Part shown: positions 28,118 to 36,409 of the stretch, one piece after another
Position numbering within the stretch: position 1 is the stretch's first letter
Layout: every line of letters starts with the position of its first letter
Assembly: GCA_005808665.1 (NCBI GenBank)
Contig: SYLG01000088.1
Location: 1 to 40,598, forward strand
DNA: 40,598 nt
Direction of reading: 5' to 3'
From: Planctomycetia bacterium
GTDB lineage: Bacteria; Planctomycetota; Planctomycetia; Gemmatales; Gemmataceae
The notes under the pieces: generated by a model
Told to the model about the DNA's origin: nothing
Databases searched by the model: none
What the model saw: the letters and a program-made list of their open reading frames with translations, nothing else
Program-made: the position numbers and the translations under genes

Positions 28118-28180
28118 CAGGGACGAATACATTAACAGAATCACAATCCTCGTTTTCCTCCCCTTTTGGAGTTCCTCCCC

Positions 28181-29791
28181 ATGGGTCGTCGCAAAAAAGA
28201 GATTGGAACTTCCGACCTGTTTGAAGGAACCGGCGAACCTCCCCCAAAAAGGTCCGCCAAATCTGCCAAATCGCCAACCACAAAATCGTTTGAACAGGAC
28301 CTTTGGGAAGCTGCGGATCAAATGCGGGCCCACATGGACGCTGCGGAATACAAACATGTCGTGCTTGGCCTGATTTTCCTGAAATATTTGTCGGACCGGT
28401 TCTACGAACAAAAAGCCAAACTGGAAAAAACCCCCGGGGCACTTCCCGATGACCGGGACGAATACGCGGCCGACAATGTTTTCTGGGTGCCCAGTGAAGC
28501 CCGTTGGGAAGGTATCCAGGCCAACAGCCGTCAACCCGACATTGGCAATCGAATCGATGCCGCCATGATCGCCATCGAAAGGGAAAACCCGGTTCGGCTG
28601 AAAGGCAAACTCACCAAAGACTATGGGCGTCCCACCCTCGACAAAACCGTCCTAGGAGGGGTGGTGGACCTGGTATCGAACATCAACCTGGCGGGAGAAA
28701 ATCAGGACCTTTTGGGCAAGGTCTATGAATACTTCCTGGGCAAATTTGCCGCCGCAGAGGGAAAACTGGGTGGACAGTTTTATACCCCATCCTGCATTGT
28801 TCGTTTGCTCGTCGAAATGATTGAGCCCTTAAAAGGAAGGGTGTACGATCCATGTTGTGGATCAGGCGGGATGTTTGTCTCTTCGGATCGATTTGTTCTT
28901 GCCCATGGCGGGAACCTAAAAGACCTTTCGGTTTACGGACAAGAATCCAATCCCACCACATGGCGTTTAGCCGCCATGAACCTTGCCATTCGTGGAATTG
29001 AGGCGGATCTGGGACGAAACTACGCAGATTCCTTCCATGACGATCAGCACAAAGACCTTAAGGCAGACTTCATCCTTGCCAATCCCCCTTTCAACATCAG
29101 CGAATGGGGAGGCGAAAGGTTAAAAGAAGATTCCCGGTGGAAGTACGGCCTTCCCCCCGAGGGAAACGCCAACTACGCATGGCTCCAGCACATGATCCAT
29201 CACCTTTCTCCGGGTGGCATGGCAGGGATCGTGCTTGCAAATGGGTCGATGAGCTCCAACCAGTCCAACGAAGGCAACATTCGCCAAAAACTGATTGAAG
29301 CCGATCTGGTGGATTGCATGGTAGCTCTGCCCGGACAACTTTTCTCCACCACCATGATTCCCGCTTGCCTATGGTTTCTAACTCGTTCGAAGACCAAGGC
29401 GAATCAGAGGGCCAGGTCAGGGGAAACCCTTTTCCTTGATGCCCGCAAACTGGGAACGATGATCGACCGAACCCAGCGGATACTGACGGATGAGGACATC
29501 AAAAAAATTGCCGATACCTACCATGCCTGGCGGGGAACCAACCCGCAAACCTATGAAGATGTGGCCGGCTTTTGCAAATCGGCAAAACGGGAGGAAATCG
29601 GGAAACATGGTTTTGTCCTTACTCCCGGGAGGTATGTCGGGGCCGAAGCGGTGGAGGACGATGGCGAACCTTTTGGAGAAAAAATGCAGCGGCTTGTGAC
29701 CCAACTGTATTCCCAGTTTGACGAGTCGGCGAAACTGGAACAGCAAATCAAGGCAAACCTCGAAAACCTGAATTGGAAAGCCAAACCATGA
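28181..29791 (+). CDS. hsdM: Type I restriction-modification DNA methyltransferase subunit HsdM
   Basis: Modification subunit that, with HsdS, methylates adenine in the target site and protects host DNA; 536 residues, a normal length. The N-terminal helical domain (about 30-190) starts [20 protein letters not shown]. The SAM site is [14 protein letters not shown] at about residues 221-234 and the catalytic motif IV is [11 protein letters not shown] at about 298-308. The usual 'GQ-FYTP' segment ([18 protein letters not shown]) marks the start of the catalytic half. I chose the ATG at 28181 with GGAG before it; an upstream TTG at 28166 adds five residues. Its TGA overlaps the ATG of the HEPN gene (ATGA), so the toxin-antitoxin pair is translated from the same message. 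Confidence 0.96.
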
Positions 29792-30204
29792 AACTGGATT
29801 TTTCCAGCCTGGAAAATGCGACCGCCTCGCTGGAACGGTCCCTCAAGGCTCAGGCTGCCTTCGAGGCCACCCTTCCCCTGGAACTTAAAGAGACCGTACG
29901 CAGTGGCATCATTCAGAATTTTGAGATCGCCTATGAACTGGCCTGGAAAATGATGAAACGCTGGCTTGAGACAAACATCAATGCTGAATCCGTCGATGGC
30001 GTGACCCGACGCGAGTTGTTTCGGCAAGCTGCGGAAAATCGCCTGATCGATGATGTGGATCTTTGGATGAGCTTTCATGCGGCAAGAAACCAAACCTCTC
30101 ACACTTACGACAACGAAACGGCAGAGGAGGTCCGCGAAAGTGCGGAACACTTCCTTGCCCAAGCCCAGTCGCTCCTCATTTCCCTGCGGGCTCGCAATGA
30201 TTGA
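29788..30204 (+). CDS. HEPN-domain toxin (nucleotidyltransferase substrate-binding, HepT-like)
   Basis: A 138-residue all-helical HEPN protein of the HI0074/HepT type. The motif RNQTSHTY (about residues 102-109) matches R-x4-H-x-Y, the catalytic RNase motif and modified Tyr of HepT toxins. The conserved helix [20 protein letters not shown] is also typical. In characterised HepT/MntA pairs the HEPN protein is an RNase that the partner silences by adding AMP groups to that Tyr; activity here is inferred. The start overlaps hsdM by 4 bp and its stop overlaps the MNT gene start by 8 bp, the tight toxin-antitoxin arrangement. Its place inside a type I restriction operon suggests a back-up defence or addiction role. 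Confidence 0.9.
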
Positions 30205-30562
30205 TCTCGCTCCGGAACAGTTGGCTATCGTGCGAAGCCTGCTGGCAGCCCAGGTTCCCGATTGCGAAGTTCGCGCCTTCGGCTCCCGGATCACGGGAAA
30301 AGCAAAGCCCTACTCTGACCTCGACATCGTCCTGTTCGGTCCCGCCAGGCTCTCCCTCGGTCGCTTGGCCACATTGCGCGAAGCCTTTGCGGAGTCGGAG
30401 CTTCCCATCCGCATTGACCTGATCGACTGGCACGCCCTTTCGGAAAACTTCCGCAACATTATCTCGGCAAAATTTGAGGTACTCCAAAATTCCACACTTT
30501 CGGATGCCGATTCGGCAAAGCAAGAACAATCAATCCTGGGAAACCTCAAAGGGCCAGGTTAG
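30197..30562 (+). CDS. MNT-domain nucleotidyltransferase antitoxin (MntA-like)
   Basis: A 121-residue minimal nucleotidyltransferase. FGSRITGKAKPYSDLDIVLFG (residues about 28-48, given here only as its GS and DLD ends: GS at 29-30, DLD at 41-43) fits the G-S-x10-D-x-D signature of MntA antitoxins exactly, with metal-binding Asps intact. A further Asp on the later strand (IDLIDW) completes the site. It should AMPylate and neutralise the HEPN partner encoded just upstream. The C-terminal tail after about residue 95 (SDADSAKQEQSILGN) is not part of the domain, and its DNA resembles part of the 138-bp repeat found downstream. I chose the ATG at 30197; an earlier in-frame start at 30077 would overlap most of the HEPN gene. 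Confidence 0.9.
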   Translation: MIDLAPEQLAIVRSLLAAQVPDCEVRAFGSRITGKAKPYSDLDIVLFGPARLSLGRLATLREAFAESELPIRIDLIDWHALSENFRNIISAKFEVLQNSTLSDADSAKQEQSILGNLKGPG

Positions 30563-30613
30563 GGCAGGTGGACTGTTTAAAGGGACCAAAGGGGGTGGAT
30601 TTTTACCAGTAAA

Positions 30614-30757
30614 ATGCTCAAAGGGACCAAAAGGACGCTAAAGGACCAAAATGCACTTTCGTCACTTGGGTCCTTTTTGTCCCTTTTAACAATTTCGCCC
30701 GTGCAGTTTGCCGATTCCCCAAAGGGGGTGGGTTATGGCCGGTGAAAAGCCCAAAGG
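30614..30757 (+). repeat. RM-locus repeat, copy 1 (upstream of the four-helix-bundle gene)
   Basis: First full copy of a repeat with a 138-bp period. It starts ATGCTCAAAGGGACC and runs through an AAAGGACC/GGTCCTTT inverted repeat, the conserved segment TTTTAACAATTTCGCCCGTG (from 30684) and a CCGATTCCCCAAAG block. It ends with a Gly/Lys-rich start region (AAAGGGGGTGGGTTATGG) that serves as ribosome-binding site and ATG of the four-helix-bundle gene. The unit itself stays open for 43 codons from 30614 to a TGA at 30743-30745, overlapping the downstream ATG at 30735. A partial copy (AAAGGGACCAAAGGG) precedes it at about 30579-30594. Confidence 0.85.
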
Positions 30758-31373
30758 GACTCCTAAGAACCAAAACTCCTCTTCCTCCCCTCCAAAAAGC
30801 GAGGGGTTTATCCCCCCACATGGCGGCTACGAACAGCTCCTTTCCTTCCAGAAAGCTCGCATTGTTTATGATGGCACGGTGCGCTTTTGCGAAAGGTTCG
30901 TTGACAGGCGTAGCCGTACCACCGACCAAATGATCCAGGCGGCCCGGTCTGGCAAACAGAACATCCTCGAAGGAAGCCAGGCTAGCGGTACCTCCAAGGA
31001 GACCGAGATCAAACTTACCAATGTCGCACGGGCCAGCCTGGAAGAACTGCTGGAAAATTACCGCGATTTTCTGCGGGTGCGCCGAATTGCAGAATGGCCC
31101 AGGGACCACTCCCACACCCGCCGCTTAAGGGAACTCAACCGCCAACCGAACGCCACCTATGAAACCTTCTTGAAAGGTATCGAGAATCCCGACCCGGCCA
31201 TTGCCGCCAATGTGATGATTGGGCTTATCAAACTCACCAATTTCCTGCTTGACCAGCAACTCCGCCGCCTTGAACAGGACTTTCTGAAAGAAGGGGGTTT
31301 GCGAGAAAAGATGACCCGTGCCCGCCTGGCCGCCCGCGCCAAACAACAAAGGGGGCAGGAATATGGCATGTGA
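30735..31373 (+). CDS. Four-helix-bundle protein (S23-like with suffix domain)
   Basis: A 212-residue protein of the four-helix-bundle family related to proteins encoded in 23S rRNA intervening sequences, with the extra C-terminal 'suffix' domain. Typical sequence: YEQLLSFQKARIVYDGTVRF, FVDRRSRTTDQMIQAARSGKQN (helix 2, shown in part), ILEGSQASGTSKETEIKLTN, LEELLENYRDFLRVR, then the suffix with NVMIGLIKLTNFLLDQQLRR. The biochemical role is unknown; members often ride in type I restriction loci. Its first 15 or so residues (MAGEKPKGTPKNQNSS) are encoded by the RM-locus repeat rather than by family sequence, as is the ribosome-binding site. The ATG at 30735 is preceded by AAAGGGGGTGG. Confidence 0.85.
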   Translation: MAGEKPKGTPKNQNSSSSPPKSEGFIPPHGGYEQLLSFQKARIVYDGTVRFCERFVDRRSRTTDQMIQAARSGKQNILEGSQASGTSKETEIKLTNVARASLEELLENYRDFLRVRRIAEWPRDHSHTRRLRELNRQPNATYETFLKGIENPDPAIAANVMIGLIKLTNFLLDQQLRRLEQDFLKEGGLREKMTRARLAARAKQQRGQEYGM

Positions 31374-31402
31374 AAAATACCAAGGGACCAAAGGAGGCAG
31401 GA

Positions 31403-31908
31403 TTTTGGGTGGTGAAAGGCTCAAAAGGACCAAAGGGACGCTAAAGGACCTAAAGGCACTTTCGTCGCTTGGGTCGGGGGGGTGGGCTATGGTGGGTGAA
31501 ATGCCAAAAAGGACCAAAATGCACTTTCGTCGCTTGGGTCCTTTTTGTCCCTTTTAACAATTTCGCCCGTGCAGTTTGCCCATTCCCCAAAGCGGGAGGG
31601 TTGGTTTTTGGTGGGTGAACTATTTAAAGGGACCAAAGGGACGCTAAAGGACCAAAATGCACTTTCGTCCCATGGGTCCTTTTTGTCCTTTTTAACAATT
31701 TCGCCCGTGCCGTTTGCCGGTTCCCCAAAGCAGGAGGGTTGGATTATGGCCAGTGAAATGCTCAAAGGGACCAAAGGGACGCTAAAGGACCAAAATGCAC
31801 TTTCGTCGCTTGGGTCCTTTTTGTCATTTTTTCTAAGGGTGCCCGTTGAGGTCACCGATTCGGCCAAGCAGGACCAGGCCTTGAATGCAAACCGGAGGGG
31901 ATTTGGTT
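31403..31908 (+). repeat. RM-locus repeat array, copies 2-5 (upstream of hsdS)
   Basis: Four further copies lie head to tail. Copy 2 (about 31410-31484) lacks its 3' half. Copy 3 (about 31493-31611) lacks the GGGACGCTAAA segment. Copy 4 (about 31612-31749) is full length, and copy 5 (about 31750-31908) diverges in its second half before meeting the hsdS start. The landmark GCACTTTCG lies at 31521, 31659 and 31797, exactly 138 bp apart, so copies 3-5 are in codon register (46 codons). The translated unit reads LKGTKGTLKDQNALSS and then SFLSFLTISPVPFAGSPK. Each full copy has AAAGGGAC/GTCCCTTT-like nested inverted repeats. A short partial copy sits at about 31383-31400. Confidence 0.85.
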
Positions 31909-31922
31909 ATGGTTGGAGATAA
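31746..31922 (+). CDS. Possible repeat-encoded leader peptide overlapping hsdS
   Basis: A 58-codon frame starts at an ATG with an excellent AGGAGGG 9 nt upstream, both inside repeat copy 4. It encodes MASEMLKGTKGTLKDQNALS, then SFLSFFLRVPVEVTDSAKQD, and ends GFGYGWR with a TAA at 31920-31922. The hsdS ATG (31909) lies inside this frame's last codons, so ribosomes finishing it would be placed at the hsdS start. It may be a translated leader that couples expression, or a chance frame kept open by the 46-codon repeat length. No family is recognised. Confidence 0.35.
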   Translation: MASEMLKGTKGTLKDQNALSSLGSFLSFFLRVPVEVTDSAKQDQALNANRRGFGYGWR

Positions 31923-33174
31923 TTGGCCACTCGTTCCGCTCGGCGAAGTTACGGAGAACTTCGATGGTCGTAGGGTCCCGGTTAAAGAGATCGAACGCAA
32001 GCCTGGTCCATTTCCGTATTACGGGGCCTCTGGAATCGTGGACCGTGTTGATAGCTACCTTTTCGATGGTGAATATCTGCTCATCGGCGAGGACGGCGAG
32101 GACGGCGAGAACTTGAGGACTCGCCAGACCCCGATAGCATTTATAGCGGATGGTAAGTTCTGGGTGAACAACCATGCACACATCGTTCGGGGGAATCATT
32201 TCGCCGAAACACGGTTTCTTTGCTACATCCTTTCTCAAACAGACATCAGCGGCTACCTCACCGGCTCGACGATGCCCAAGCTCACCCAGGGCAATTTGAA
32301 TCGTCTACCCATCCCCCTTCCTCCCCTCCCCATTCAACGCCGCATTGCCTCCATACTTGGTTCCCTCGACGACAAGATCGAACTGAATCGCCAGATGAAT
32401 GAAACGCTGGAGGCGATGGCGAAGGCGTTGTTCCAAAGCTGGTTTGTCGATTTCGATCCTGTCCATGCCAAGGCTCAAGGCAAAAAGCCGGAAGGAATGG
32501 ATGAAGCCACGGCTGAACTGTTTCCTGATTCCTTTGTGGAATCTGAGCTTGGGAAGATTCCGAAGGGGTGGAAGGCAAAGCGCTTGCCTGACACCATTGA
32601 AGTCAATCCGCCGCGCAGATTGAGGAAAGGAACAATTGCACCCTACCTCGACATGAAAAACCTGCCAACGAGAGGCCATTCCGCCGAGGAAGTCCTCCAA
32701 CGAGGATTCAGTTCCGGCACCAAATTTCAAAACGGCGACACGCTCTTTGCCCGAATCACCCCCTGTTTGGAGAACGGCAAAACTGGGTTTGTAGATTTCC
32801 TCGAAGAAGGCCAAGTCGGCTGGGGATCCACCGAATACATCATCCTCACCCCGAAGCCGCCGCTCCCACCGCAATTCGGTTACCTCCTTGCTCGCTCAGA
32901 CGCACTACGCACCCATGCCATCCAAAACATGACCGGCACAAGCGGACGTCAGCGAGTCCCGGCTGAATCCCTTAACACATTCTGGCTCGCTTCCCCTCCA
33001 CCACCAATCGCCCGCCGCTTTGATGAGGTGACGGTGTCGGTGATGGCGGCAATCAAAGCGAATGTCAATCAATCCCGCACCCTCGCCACCCTCCGTGACA
33101 CCCTCCTTCCCAAGCTCCTCAGCGGGGAATTGAGCGTGGCGGGCCTCGAATCCAAACAAAAGGCAAGCCTGTGA
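31909..33174 (+). CDS. hsdS: Type I restriction-modification specificity subunit HsdS
   Basis: A 421-residue DNA-recognition subunit that directs methylation and cleavage to a bipartite target. Target-recognition domain 1 (about 5-145) contains FPYYGASGIVDRVDSYLFDG and NNHAHIVRG. The first conserved helix pair follows (LPPLPIQRRIASILGSLDDK, about 142-161, then IELNRQMNETLEAMAKALF). Domain 2 (about 210-365) ends in the second conserved helix with LATLRDTLLPKLLSGELSV. Both halves are complete. Residues about 60-68 are GEDGEDGEN, made by a 9-bp DNA repeat (32086-32112), where relatives usually have one GEDG. GGAGGGG precedes the ATG. It is separated from hsdM by the toxin-antitoxin pair, the four-helix gene and the repeats. 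Confidence 0.95.
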   Translation: MVGDNWPLVPLGEVTENFDGRRVPVKEIERKPGPFPYYGASGIVDRVDSYLFDGEYLLIGEDGEDGENLRTRQTPIAFIADGKFWVNNHAHIVRGNHFAETRFLCYILSQTDISGYLTGSTMPKLTQGNLNRLPIPLPPLPIQRRIASILGSLDDKIELNRQMNETLEAMAKALFQSWFVDFDPVHAKAQGKKPEGMDEATAELFPDSFVESELGKIPKGWKAKRLPDTIEVNPPRRLRKGTIAPYLDMKNLPTRGHSAEEVLQRGFSSGTKFQNGDTLFARITPCLENGKTGFVDFLEEGQVGWGSTEYIILTPKPPLPPQFGYLLARSDALRTHAIQNMTGTSGRQRVPAESLNTFWLASPPPPIARRFDEVTVSVMAAIKANVNQSRTLATLRDTLLPKLLSGELSVAGLESKQKASL

Positions 33175-33241: not shown

Positions 33242-33281
33242 CCAAAGCCTTAGGACCCCCTTTGCGAAAGGCCTTTGGAGC
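33242..33281 (+). promoter_or_regulatory. Hairpin in the hsdS-hsdR gap
   Basis: CCAAAGCCTT near 33242-33251 pairs with AAGGCCTTTGG near 33268-33279 with one bulged base. The 142-bp gap between hsdS and hsdR is otherwise featureless and is the only unusually long space in the second half of the locus. It could tune hsdR expression relative to the methylase; no T-run follows, so a strong terminator is unlikely. Confidence 0.3.
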
Positions 33282-33316
33282 GAAATTCAAAATTAACCTT
33301 CCCAAGGATGTTTCCC

Positions 33317-36300
33317 ATGCCCAGCCTTATTGATGAAGCCGCCGTAGAAGGAATGACCCTTGAGTGGTTCCAGGAACTCGGGTACGCCATTGGAAACGCT
33401 GAAGATCCGGAATTTCAATCCGAACGGGAAACCCTGGGGGATTGCCTTCTCCGGAATCGCCTCGAGGCATCGCTTGCCCGGATCAATCCCAAAGCCCAAC
33501 CCACAAGCCTCCGGGAAGCCCTTAGGCAAATCCTCCTGGTCGATTCTGCCCATCTCCTGAACAACAATCATCAATTCCATCGGCTTCTCGTCGAGGGGAT
33601 CGACTGTGAGGTCAAACGGCCAGATGGCTCCGCAGGGGCGGAAAAGGTCTGGTTGGTGGATGGGGCGAACCCGGACAACAATGACTGGTTGGTCCTTCAG
33701 CAATTTACTGTGGTCGAGAACAACAAGAAGCGCCGGGCGGACCTTGTGGTTTTTGTCAACGGATTACCCGTTAGCGTCATCGAGCTGAAGAATCCCAGCT
33801 CCGAACAAACGAGCATTCGCCAAGCCTATGACCAACTCCGAACCTACTTATCCGAGATTCCGACTTTGTTCGTTTGCTCGGAGCTACTCATTATCTCCGA
33901 TGGGATTCACGCCAGGCTTGGAACCATAAGTTCCGACTTTGAACGATTCCTCCCGTGGAGAACGGTGGATGGTAGGGCCATCGTCCCCAAGGATCTTCCC
34001 GAATTGGAACCTCTGATCAACGGGGTATTCAGGAAAGAATTCTTCCTTGAACTTGTCCGCAATTTTGTTGTTTTCGAGAACTTCGGGACCAAACAAATCA
34101 AGAAAGTCGCTGGGTATCACCAATTCCATGCTGTTAGGAAGGCTGTTGCCTGTACGGTTAAAGCTGCCAATCCTGATGGGGATCGGAAAATCGGGGTGGT
34201 TTGGCACACCCAGGGAAGCGGCAAATCACTCACCATGGTCTTTTATGCAGGAATGCTAGTCAAGGAACCTGCCCTTGAGAATCCAACCCTTGTCATTGTG
34301 ACCGATAGGGACGATCTGGATGGGCAACTTTGTGACACCTTTGGACGCTGTTCCGAACTCTTAAGACAAAAACCAAAGCAGGCAGACAGTCGGGAAAATC
34401 TGAGGGAGTTGCTCAAGGTCAACACCGGCGGTATTGTGTTTACCACCATGCAAAAGTTCATGGCGGAGACGGGAGAAACATTCCCTGAGTTGTCCAAGAG
34501 GCGAAACATTATTGTCATCGCCGATGAGGCCCACCGGACCCAATACGGTTTGCGGGTGAAAATGGACAAGGAAACAGGAGAGGTCAAGGCGGGGTTTGCC
34601 GCCAACCTCCGCAGAGCTCTTCCCAACGCCTCCTTCATTGGGTTTACCGGAACACCCGTGGAGAACCGGGACCACAGCACCCCTTTGGTTTTTGGCAATT
34701 ACATCGACACCTATGACATCCTGAGGGCGGTGGAGGATGGAGCCACGGTTCCGATTCTCTATGAACCCCGATTGGCAAAGTTGGACCTCAATGAGGCTGA
34801 AATTCCCAAATTGGATGAGGAGTATGAACAACTTTCAGAGGTAGAGGAAGCAACCAAGGGGAAACCCACCTCCAAATGGGCAAAGGTGGAAGCAATTGTT
34901 GGATCAGACAAAAGGCTGGACAAGGTAGCAAAGGATTTAGTGGAGCACTGGGAGAAGCGCTACAACGGGTTGGAAGGCAAGTGCATGATGGTTTGTATGA
35001 GCCGCCGCATTGCGGTTGAGATGTACAACCGCATTGCAAGACTTCGCCCCAACTGGGTCTCCCCCAATGATGATGAGGGACGGGTGAAAATTGTTATGAC
35101 TGGATCCGCTGCGGATGGGCCAGATTGGCAGCAGCACATTGGCACAAAACAAAGACGGGAGAAAATCGGTCAACGACTCAAAGATCCCAAGGATCCTCTC
35201 TTTATGGTATTGGTTCGGGACATGTTCCTTACCGGTTTTGACGCTCCCTGTCTCCATACCCTCTATGTGGACAAACCCATGCAGGGACATGGATTGATGC
35301 AGGCAATTGCAAGAGTCAATCGGGTCTTCAAAGACAAGCCGGGGGGTCTGGTTGTGGATTATCTGGGCCTGGCGGAAAATTTGAAACGAGCCCTGGCGGA
35401 TTACACGGAAGACGACAAAAACCAAACGGGAATTCCCATTGAAGAGGCAGTCGATGCGTTCCTAAGTTTGTTGGAGGTCTGCCGGGACCTGTTCCACGGG
35501 ATTGATTACCTCCCTTCCCTGAAGGGAGAACCTAAAGACAGGCTTCTGATCATGAAAAAGATGATGGATCATGCCTTGGATCCTGGACGAAGGCCCAAGG
35601 TCATGGCTCAAGTGAACCAATTGACAAAGGCGGCAGCTCTGGCGACACCTCATCCTGAGGTAATGGCGGTTGAGGAGGAAATTGCCCTCTTTCAAGCCAT
35701 TCGGGCATTGATTGCCAAAGACGGCAGCTTTGTTGAAGTTCGGGCCAACGCACCAAGAGTCGATTGGGACTCGGCCATCAAGCAACTGGTGAGCCGTGGA
35801 CTATCCGGAGGGGAAGTGGTCGATCTTTTTGAGGCGGCGGGGCTCAAAAAACCAAGCCTCGGTATCTTTTCCGAGGAGTTCCTGAAGGAAGTACGGCAGC
35901 TTCCCGAGCGCAATCTGGCGGTGGAGGCTCTCAGACGCCTGTTGGACGCGGAAGTGAAAAGGTCAGGGCGAAAATCGATTGTCAAGGAAAGACGGTTTTC
36001 CGAACTATTGGAAGGGCTCCTGGCCCGTTACAAAAACCAGGCCATCACCAGCGCTCAAGTGATTGAGGAACTGGTCCAGCTCTACCGGGACCTGATAGCC
36101 TCCCAGAATCGGGGCGAGGAAATGAAGCTCACGGAGGAGGAGATTGCCTTTTACGAGGCGCTGGAAACCAGTGATGCTGCCGTGGCAGGGCTTGGAGAAC
36201 CGCTTTTGGTGAAAATTGCCCAGCACTTGACCAAAATCATCCGGGAGAATGCTTCCATCGATTGGCAAAAGCGTGAAAGTGTAAGGGCCAATCTCCGAAG

Positions 36301-36409
36301 GTTGGTGCGCCGGACCCTGGCCAAGTTTGGGTATCCACCGGATAAATTGCCCAAAGCCGTGGAAACCGTGATTGAACAGGCGGAGAGATTGGCGGAGTTG
36401 GCAGCTTAA
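33317..36409 (+). CDS. hsdR: Type I restriction endonuclease subunit HsdR
   Basis: DNA-translocating, cleaving subunit of 1030 residues, a normal length. The PD-(D/E)xK nuclease site is RADLVVFVNGLPVSVIELKN at about residues 139-158. The SF2 helicase motor has Walker A HTQGSGKSLTMVFY (about 297-310), motif II VIADEAHRTQYG (about 399-410), motif III GFTGTPVE (about 441-448) and motif VI QAIARVNRVFKDKPGG (about 661-676). The C-terminal helical domain contacts the methylase. The ATG at 33317 has AAGGA 8 nt upstream; a second ATG at 33308 adds three residues. All active-site residues are present, so the locus appears functional. It is the last gene of the locus. Confidence 0.96.
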   Translation: MPSLIDEAAVEGMTLEWFQELGYAIGNAEDPEFQSERETLGDCLLRNRLEASLARINPKAQPTSLREALRQILLVDSAHLLNNNHQFHRLLVEGIDCEVKRPDGSAGAEKVWLVDGANPDNNDWLVLQQFTVVENNKKRRADLVVFVNGLPVSVIELKNPSSEQTSIRQAYDQLRTYLSEIPTLFVCSELLIISDGIHARLGTISSDFERFLPWRTVDGRAIVPKDLPELEPLINGVFRKEFFLELVRNFVVFENFGTKQIKKVAGYHQFHAVRKAVACTVKAANPDGDRKIGVVWHTQGSGKSLTMVFYAGMLVKEPALENPTLVIVTDRDDLDGQLCDTFGRCSELLRQKPKQADSRENLRELLKVNTGGIVFTTMQKFMAETGETFPELSKRRNIIVIADEAHRTQYGLRVKMDKETGEVKAGFAANLRRALPNASFIGFTGTPVENRDHSTPLVFGNYIDTYDILRAVEDGATVPILYEPRLAKLDLNEAEIPKLDEEYEQLSEVEEATKGKPTSKWAKVEAIVGSDKRLDKVAKDLVEHWEKRYNGLEGKCMMVCMSRRIAVEMYNRIARLRPNWVSPNDDEGRVKIVMTGSAADGPDWQQHIGTKQRREKIGQRLKDPKDPLFMVLVRDMFLTGFDAPCLHTLYVDKPMQGHGLMQAIARVNRVFKDKPGGLVVDYLGLAENLKRALADYTEDDKNQTGIPIEEAVDAFLSLLEVCRDLFHGIDYLPSLKGEPKDRLLIMKKMMDHALDPGRRPKVMAQVNQLTKAAALATPHPEVMAVEEEIALFQAIRALIAKDGSFVEVRANAPRVDWDSAIKQLVSRGLSGGEVVDLFEAAGLKKPSLGIFSEEFLKEVRQLPERNLAVEALRRLLDAEVKRSGRKSIVKERRFSELLEGLLARYKNQAITSAQVIEELVQLYRDLIASQNRGEEMKLTEEEIAFYEALETSDAAVAGLGEPLLVKIAQHLTKIIRENASIDWQKRESVRANLRRLVRRTLAKFGYPPDKLPKAVETVIEQAERLAELAA

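Follow-up and report, generated by a model that had tools for sequence, protein, structure and literature searches.

An S23/IVP-type four-helix-bundle gene between private hairpin repeats in a planctomycete restriction operon: a probable IVS-like insertion cassette outside rRNA

A type I restriction operon of a Planctomycetia bacterium contains, between hsdM and hsdS, a gene that encodes a four-helix-bundle protein and is flanked by repeats on both sides. The window, meaning the whole stretch of DNA that was analysed, comprises 40,598 nucleotides of contig SYLG01000088.1, and the genes occur in the order hsdM, nucleotidyltransferase pair, repeat copy A, four-helix-bundle gene with suffix domain, repeat copies B to E, hsdS and hsdR. 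The segment from copy A to copy E is referred to below as the cassette.

28166..29791, + strand: hsdM of the host operon, upstream of the cassette (PF02384/PF12161; TIGR00497 below cut-off)
29788..30562, + strand: nucleotidyltransferase pair (PF08780, PF01909, TIGR01987; NF047752 below cut-off)
29788-30204, + strand: HI0074-like substrate-binding subunit of that pair
30201-30562, + strand: MNT-type nucleotidyltransferase of that pair
30574..30734, + strand: copy A, left terminal hairpin, with both arms and an SD-ATG end (folding z -4.1)
30735..31373, + strand: four-helix-bundle protein with C-terminal suffix domain, S23/IVP-Avd fold (TIGR04258, TIGR02436, structure model)
31374..31477, + strand: copy B, right terminal repeat, most of the right hairpin arm missing (folding z -1.7)
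31478..31597, + strand: copy C, right terminal repeat, most of the left arm missing (folding z -1.6)
31598..31735, + strand: copy D, right terminal repeat, a full 138-bp unit with both arms (folding z -3.1)
31736..31900, + strand: copy E, right terminal repeat with both arms, its tail running into the hsdS ribosome-binding site (folding z -1.8)
31909..33174, + strand: hsdS of the host operon, downstream of the cassette (PF01420, E 4e-29)
33275..36409, + strand: hsdR of the host operon (PF18766, PF11867, TIGR00348)

The nucleotidyltransferase pair is a second insert between hsdM and hsdS and lies outside the cassette. It is a possible toxin-antitoxin module nested within the operon; no HI0074/MNT pair was found 3' of hsdM among the 29 hsdM relatives compared. 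Within hsdS, CGGCGAGGA forms 2.8 repeats at 32085-32109, a short protein repeat.

The initial annotation of this DNA described at least five hairpin-bearing repeat copies with a landmark spaced at exactly 138 bp, and this description holds. The sequence GCACTTTCGTC occurs at 30653, 31456, 31521, 31659 and 31797, with intervals of exactly 138 bp between the final three, and TRF reports a 138-bp array at 31508-31831 (89% matches, score 529); an independent repeat search yielded the same family. The five copies span 30574-31900, with three of them in the 138-bp tandem, and overlapping core stretches are 90-98% identical. As had also been stated, this is not a CRISPR array: the copies are contiguous, and no unrelated spacers separate them. 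The conserved SD-ATG end is present at 30735, 31489, 31746 and 31909, but is broken at the C/D junction, where ATGG reads TTGG. Coding continuity through the tandem had been read from an open frame at 31545-31922; that frame results from a period divisible by three and does not speak for coding. The tandem copies differ from each other and are therefore not one repeat read several times, although their number may have been miscounted in assembly. A 22-nt sequence, CCGATTCGGCMAAGCARGAMCA, at the end of the MNT gene (30507-30528) recurs with 86% identity at the end of copy E (31855-31876), and the tails of the 138-bp units resemble it; the recurrence could be a trace of insertion or of tandem growth.

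A feature absent from that annotation is that each copy is itself composed of 9-bp units. GGAC and GTCC recur every 9 (or 10) bp inside each copy, which makes the 138-bp unit a hairpin assembled from nonamers. In copy A, for example, GGAC units at 30624, 30633 and 30643 are followed by a loop, GTCC units at 30670 and 30679, and the SD-ATG end. These two motifs together reach 35 per kb in the copies, compared with 9 per kb elsewhere in the window. When the RNA is folded, copies A and D clearly outperform shuffled sequences, whereas B, C and E do so weakly, and the copies are too alike for their alignment to reveal compensatory pairing. No Rfam family matched window positions 30000-32200 at E values up to 0.1, and a known RNA family is thus not indicated.

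The product of the gene between copies A and B belongs to TIGR04258 (E 3e-21, 74.9 bits against a cut-off of 40) and also scores above the cut-off for TIGR02436 (E 8e-7), with PF05635 below its cut-off; the 5' end of the gene contains part of a repeat unit. An AlphaFold model of the conserved part has a pLDDT of 87. Its best PDB match is 2GSC (Z 16.4), and it also matches the S23-family structure 2RLD (Z 13.8) and the Avd protein of diversity-generating retroelements (DGRs; Z 11-12, 4DWL at 11.2). The S23 matches exceed those to unrelated structures, whereas Z values like those for Avd are within reach of helical bundles alone. A sequence search against solved structures returned nothing, and no match from Foldseek alone had an E-value below 0.001. 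Four-helix genes of the S23/IVP type are present in 36 of 79 sampled genomes of the Planctomycetota, with up to 25 copies in one, and TIGR04258 genes in 30 of 392 genomes of the phylum. The open-licence literature searched gave no function for the S23/IVP genes, and in PMC, within open-licence papers, no text on TIGR04258 was found.

The repeats had been proposed as a family that colonises defence operons. All matches to the 138-bp unit in the 4.48-Mb genome lie on one contig within 1.4 kb (the assembly has 186 contigs, so that collapsed repeats are possible), and the genomes of 58 relatives contain none; it is therefore not a dispersed repeat family. REP- and MITE-type palindromic repeats are short intergenic hairpin DNA with many genomic copies. 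The cassette units differ from these in that each was confined to a single locus in the two genomes searched and goes with one particular gene. The four-helix gene and its arrays are also absent 3' of hsdM in 29 hsdM relatives for which the downstream sequence is covered; these nearest relatives are only 63-69% identical, and none in the data is a close relative with an empty site at the same locus. In one of the loci compared (L241), a 58%-identical hsdS directly follows hsdM. Nor are the repeats tied to hsdS, since relatives of the four-helix gene have the same architecture in ATP-synthase, transporter and CRISPR-cas contexts, among others. The repeats belong to the four-helix-bundle gene, and no evidence was found for a recombination hot-spot that swaps hsdS. 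As for the suggestion that they set translation or mRNA stability within defence operons, the hairpins do exist, and it is plausible that they affect how the mRNA is processed or translated, but the defence-family part of the idea is not supported.

A scan of species genomes supplied 80 suffix-type (TIGR04258) genes from many phyla for comparison; their loci are interrelated rather than independent samples, and most come from metagenome bins. Autocorrelation in their flanks is prominent only at lags of 9, 18 and 27, a pattern not seen 600-1500 bp away. The 4-mer most frequently repeated at +9 is GGAC/GTCC, with 126 occurrences near the suffix genes and 19 far from them (30-fold per base). Against 1000 draws of random places in the same loci, a count of 117 compares with a null mean of 2.0 and a maximum of 17. 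The density of GGAC repeated at 9 bp is 4.02 per kb at suffix genes, 0.07 at HsdM loci and 0.09-0.13 at plain four-helix loci. The pooled unit is the nonamer GGACNNMWR. Units vary between loci, for instance GGACCTCAA in an acidobacterium and GGACCCATA in a planctomycete, yet the arms pair regardless, so the hairpins have been rebuilt from different sequence. Hairpins exceed 99% of shuffles in 26 of 76 suffix loci, and a near-perfect example (L062) has stems before the start codon and around the gene end. The data do not support strict complementarity at the nonamer's two free positions; NN is often unpaired across the arms, and perfect double-stranded RNA is thus not the conserved property. 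No dominant period was seen in 45 of the 80 suffix loci or in 13 of 41 plain four-helix loci, which implies that the arrays are not obligatory or that they decay.

Positions 5 and 6 of the nonamer use A, C, G and T evenly, whereas the other positions are constrained. Such evenness, like the Avd fold match, could be expected of a DGR-related retro-type element, in which an Avd-like protein and a reverse transcriptase acting in trans would copy the hairpin RNA and mutagenise NN. This is highly improbable. The cassette protein is like DGR Avd (4DWL, 8UB7) in fold, but the neighbours of the cassette in the window are hsdM, the nucleotidyltransferase pair, hsdS and hsdR, with no reverse transcriptase gene beside it, and adenines at the other positions of GGACNNMWR are not randomised.

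Three further observations concern the suffix and four-helix loci. At L026 and L028 (genomes G206 and G309), the suffix gene adjoins a Cas4-like reading frame and arrays are absent; these perhaps represent a stable cas-associated lineage. At L098, L114, L121, L122, L125, L126, L128 and L130, 9-bp arrays of the type ATARGACCT, with an in-frame period, occur inside the four-helix gene itself, about +343 from the match start, at one place of the protein. At L043, a 528-bp block consisting of a 9-bp array and the suffix domain is duplicated (795-1322 and 1389-1916, 99% identity).

Plain TIGR02436 genes are likewise bounded by short arrays in inverted orientation, with periods of 7-9 bp and units mostly of 7 or 8 bp. 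Left and right flanks are complementary above 99% of swapped pairs at 20 of 40 plain loci, compared with 4 of 85 HsdM control loci. This test measured local complementarity with swaps; RNA duplex energy was dropped because it was dominated by base composition and uninformative. Copies within one genome (G070) carry different units, among them the 7-mer AGTTACA, the 8-mer CTAAGAGA and a 9-mer, and the arrays are therefore private to each cassette. Another genome (G071, loci L215-L220) has 20 four-helix genes near GC-rich 6- and 7-bp arrays (CGGGGAT, ACGTGA), which look like another period class.

Two sites in relatives allow a comparison with and without the cassette. In Thiocystis violacea DSM 208 and in a second genome (G465), arrays and gene lie between atpF and atpA, two genes that in G470 and G477 are joined by a short linker with no cassette. 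In G070, a 603-bp piece comprising an 8-mer array, the reading frame and further 8-mer arrays starts at the upstream stop codon and ends at the start of the next gene, where G364, of the same genus, has 21 bp. That arrays plus gene form one insertion is thus well supported at these two sites; neither a target-site duplication nor a mobility enzyme was found. The Thiocystis array has no match elsewhere in its genome, and its left and right hairpins have an identical loop sequence, GACCGATTGGCTCAGTTGTC, just as copy A and copies B-E in the window have a loop sequence in common.

Units and copy numbers differ between the sister insertions of Thiocystis violacea and G465, as they do between copies in one genome. 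Variation of this kind might suggest a mutational by-product, with inverted repeats expanding by replication slippage into functionless hairpins and the gene hitchhiking in horizontally moved DNA. That account is distinctly unlikely, given the roughly 30-fold enrichment of arrays near the genes relative to far parts of the same loci, their near absence from control loci, and the retention of a 9-bp period and GGAC core by the suffix subfamily across phyla. In the one pair compared, Thiocystis and G465, the gene is under purifying selection (dN 0.037, dS 0.404).

The nearest relative of the Thiocystis protein is from Hydrogenedentota, and the four-helix family is patchily spread across phyla: its tree requires 41 phylum changes, against a minimum of 14. 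Phylum-change counts alone are no proof of transfer, but taken with the Hydrogenedentota relative they point to gain rather than loss as the polarity of the events. The cassette is co-directional with both neighbours at 38 loci and opposite to both at 8 (p 9e-6). The genes directly beside it are of many kinds, among them those of type I and other restriction systems, cas genes, and ATP-synthase and transporter genes; defence loci may be over-represented. The cassette is not restriction-specific: an element specific to type I systems is ruled out by the neighbour survey, the empty sites and the hsdM relatives that lack it.

The recurrence beside type I restriction and cas genes nevertheless brings to mind a module that serves its host, the four-helix gene and hairpins having been recruited to tune the operon (here the dosage of hsdS) through mRNA stability or attenuation. 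The order hsdM-gene-hsdS is found in several phyla (L070, L079, L101, L129), the co-orientation with neighbours would suit such a role, and most units have an SD-ATG end able to start the next gene. However, the neighbours are very diverse, operons at the empty sites are intact without the cassette, and the closest hsdM relatives lack it; host regulation is accordingly an unlikely explanation.

The closest parallel among described elements is the intervening sequence (IVS) of 23S rRNA, known from Leptospira and Coxiella, which has an open reading frame for an S23p/IVP four-helix protein and inverted repeats that fold to a stem (PMC4990558). These sequences are sporadic, horizontally spread and described as selfish, and are processed by RNase III; the S23 relative of the cassette protein forms a homopentamer (PMC4990558). 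Like them, the cassette in the window encodes an S23p/IVP-type four-helix bundle, as seen in the TIGR02436 match and the 2GSC and 2RLD fold matches, and has ends that fold to a stem, although each end folds on itself (copies A and D, and relatives). It differs in lying between protein genes (hsdM/MNT and hsdS) rather than inside a 23S rRNA gene, and in having ends made of 7-9-bp tandem arrays with private units. The Coxiella S23p has been reported as apparently not made and decaying (PMC4990558), unlike the selected gene of the Thiocystis/G465 pair. The cassette thus seems to work like a 23S IVS, but is not classed as one because of its location outside rRNA.

Two other accounts share single features with the cassette. 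Geobacter metallireducens has tandem 7-8-bp repeats, several classes of which are paired on opposite strands, similar to the short-period units here (PMC2700814). As described there, those repeats differ in being multicopy families with a shared unit, interpreted as regulator sites or RNA elements, and the available part of the account gives no link to a four-helix-bundle gene. Genes annotated 23S_rRNA_IVP, of the same protein family, have been noted beside defence genes in cas loci, in an account whose available part mentions neither flanking arrays nor evidence of insertion (PMC3936711).

The 138-bp repeats probably form the hairpin ends of an insertion cassette that resembles an IVS but lies outside rRNA and encodes a four-helix-bundle protein. 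Such a cassette would consist of a left hairpin, the gene with its S23/IVP-Avd fold, and one or more right hairpins, and would have entered an operon already in place as a single piece, in this case between hsdM(-MNT) and hsdS. The hairpin arms are short-unit arrays; in the suffix type the unit has 9 bp, with GGAC as its core and two positions free, and in the plain type it mostly has 7-8 bp. Each cassette end would fold into a stem in the transcript. By analogy with the 23S IVS, RNase III-type cleavage probably allows these stems to isolate the cassette from the host mRNA, so that insertion into an operon would be tolerated. Proteins of this fold are known to assemble as pentamers, and the one encoded here probably binds the structured RNA of its own cassette. 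The private units are probably renewed by slippage and arm-to-arm correction, and the tandem copies C-D-E are probably later local duplications of the right end.

On balance we lean towards a widespread and undescribed class of insertion elements, in which a four-helix gene with privately owned short-period hairpin arrays lodges in operons, mostly in sense, and each protein subfamily has its own period, 9 bp in the suffix type (GGACNNMWR) and mostly 7-8 bp in the plain type. Cassettes of this kind across many phyla have apparently not been reported as a class; no linkage of four-helix genes with tandem arrays was found in the open-licence PMC literature, a coverage that does not prove absence from the literature. 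The cassette is a variant among S23p-encoding insertion elements, with a fair chance of deserving a class of its own, and a recurrent and testable class thus seems to have been overlooked. Viewed as cargo of operon-inserting hairpin cassettes, four-helix genes gain a context, and their function becomes a question about RNA that can be tested. The same view would explain why odd short tandem repeats turn up in operons for restriction, CRISPR and housekeeping functions. That each protein subfamily goes with a particular repeat period is specific enough to be tested.

A phage or plasmid element is not indicated: at E 1e-5 there was no match among phage records and a single one among plasmid records, from Prevotella nigrescens. 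The viral contig collection holds a single relative, on one IMG/VR contig (L131), with GTCGGACNN arrays nearby.
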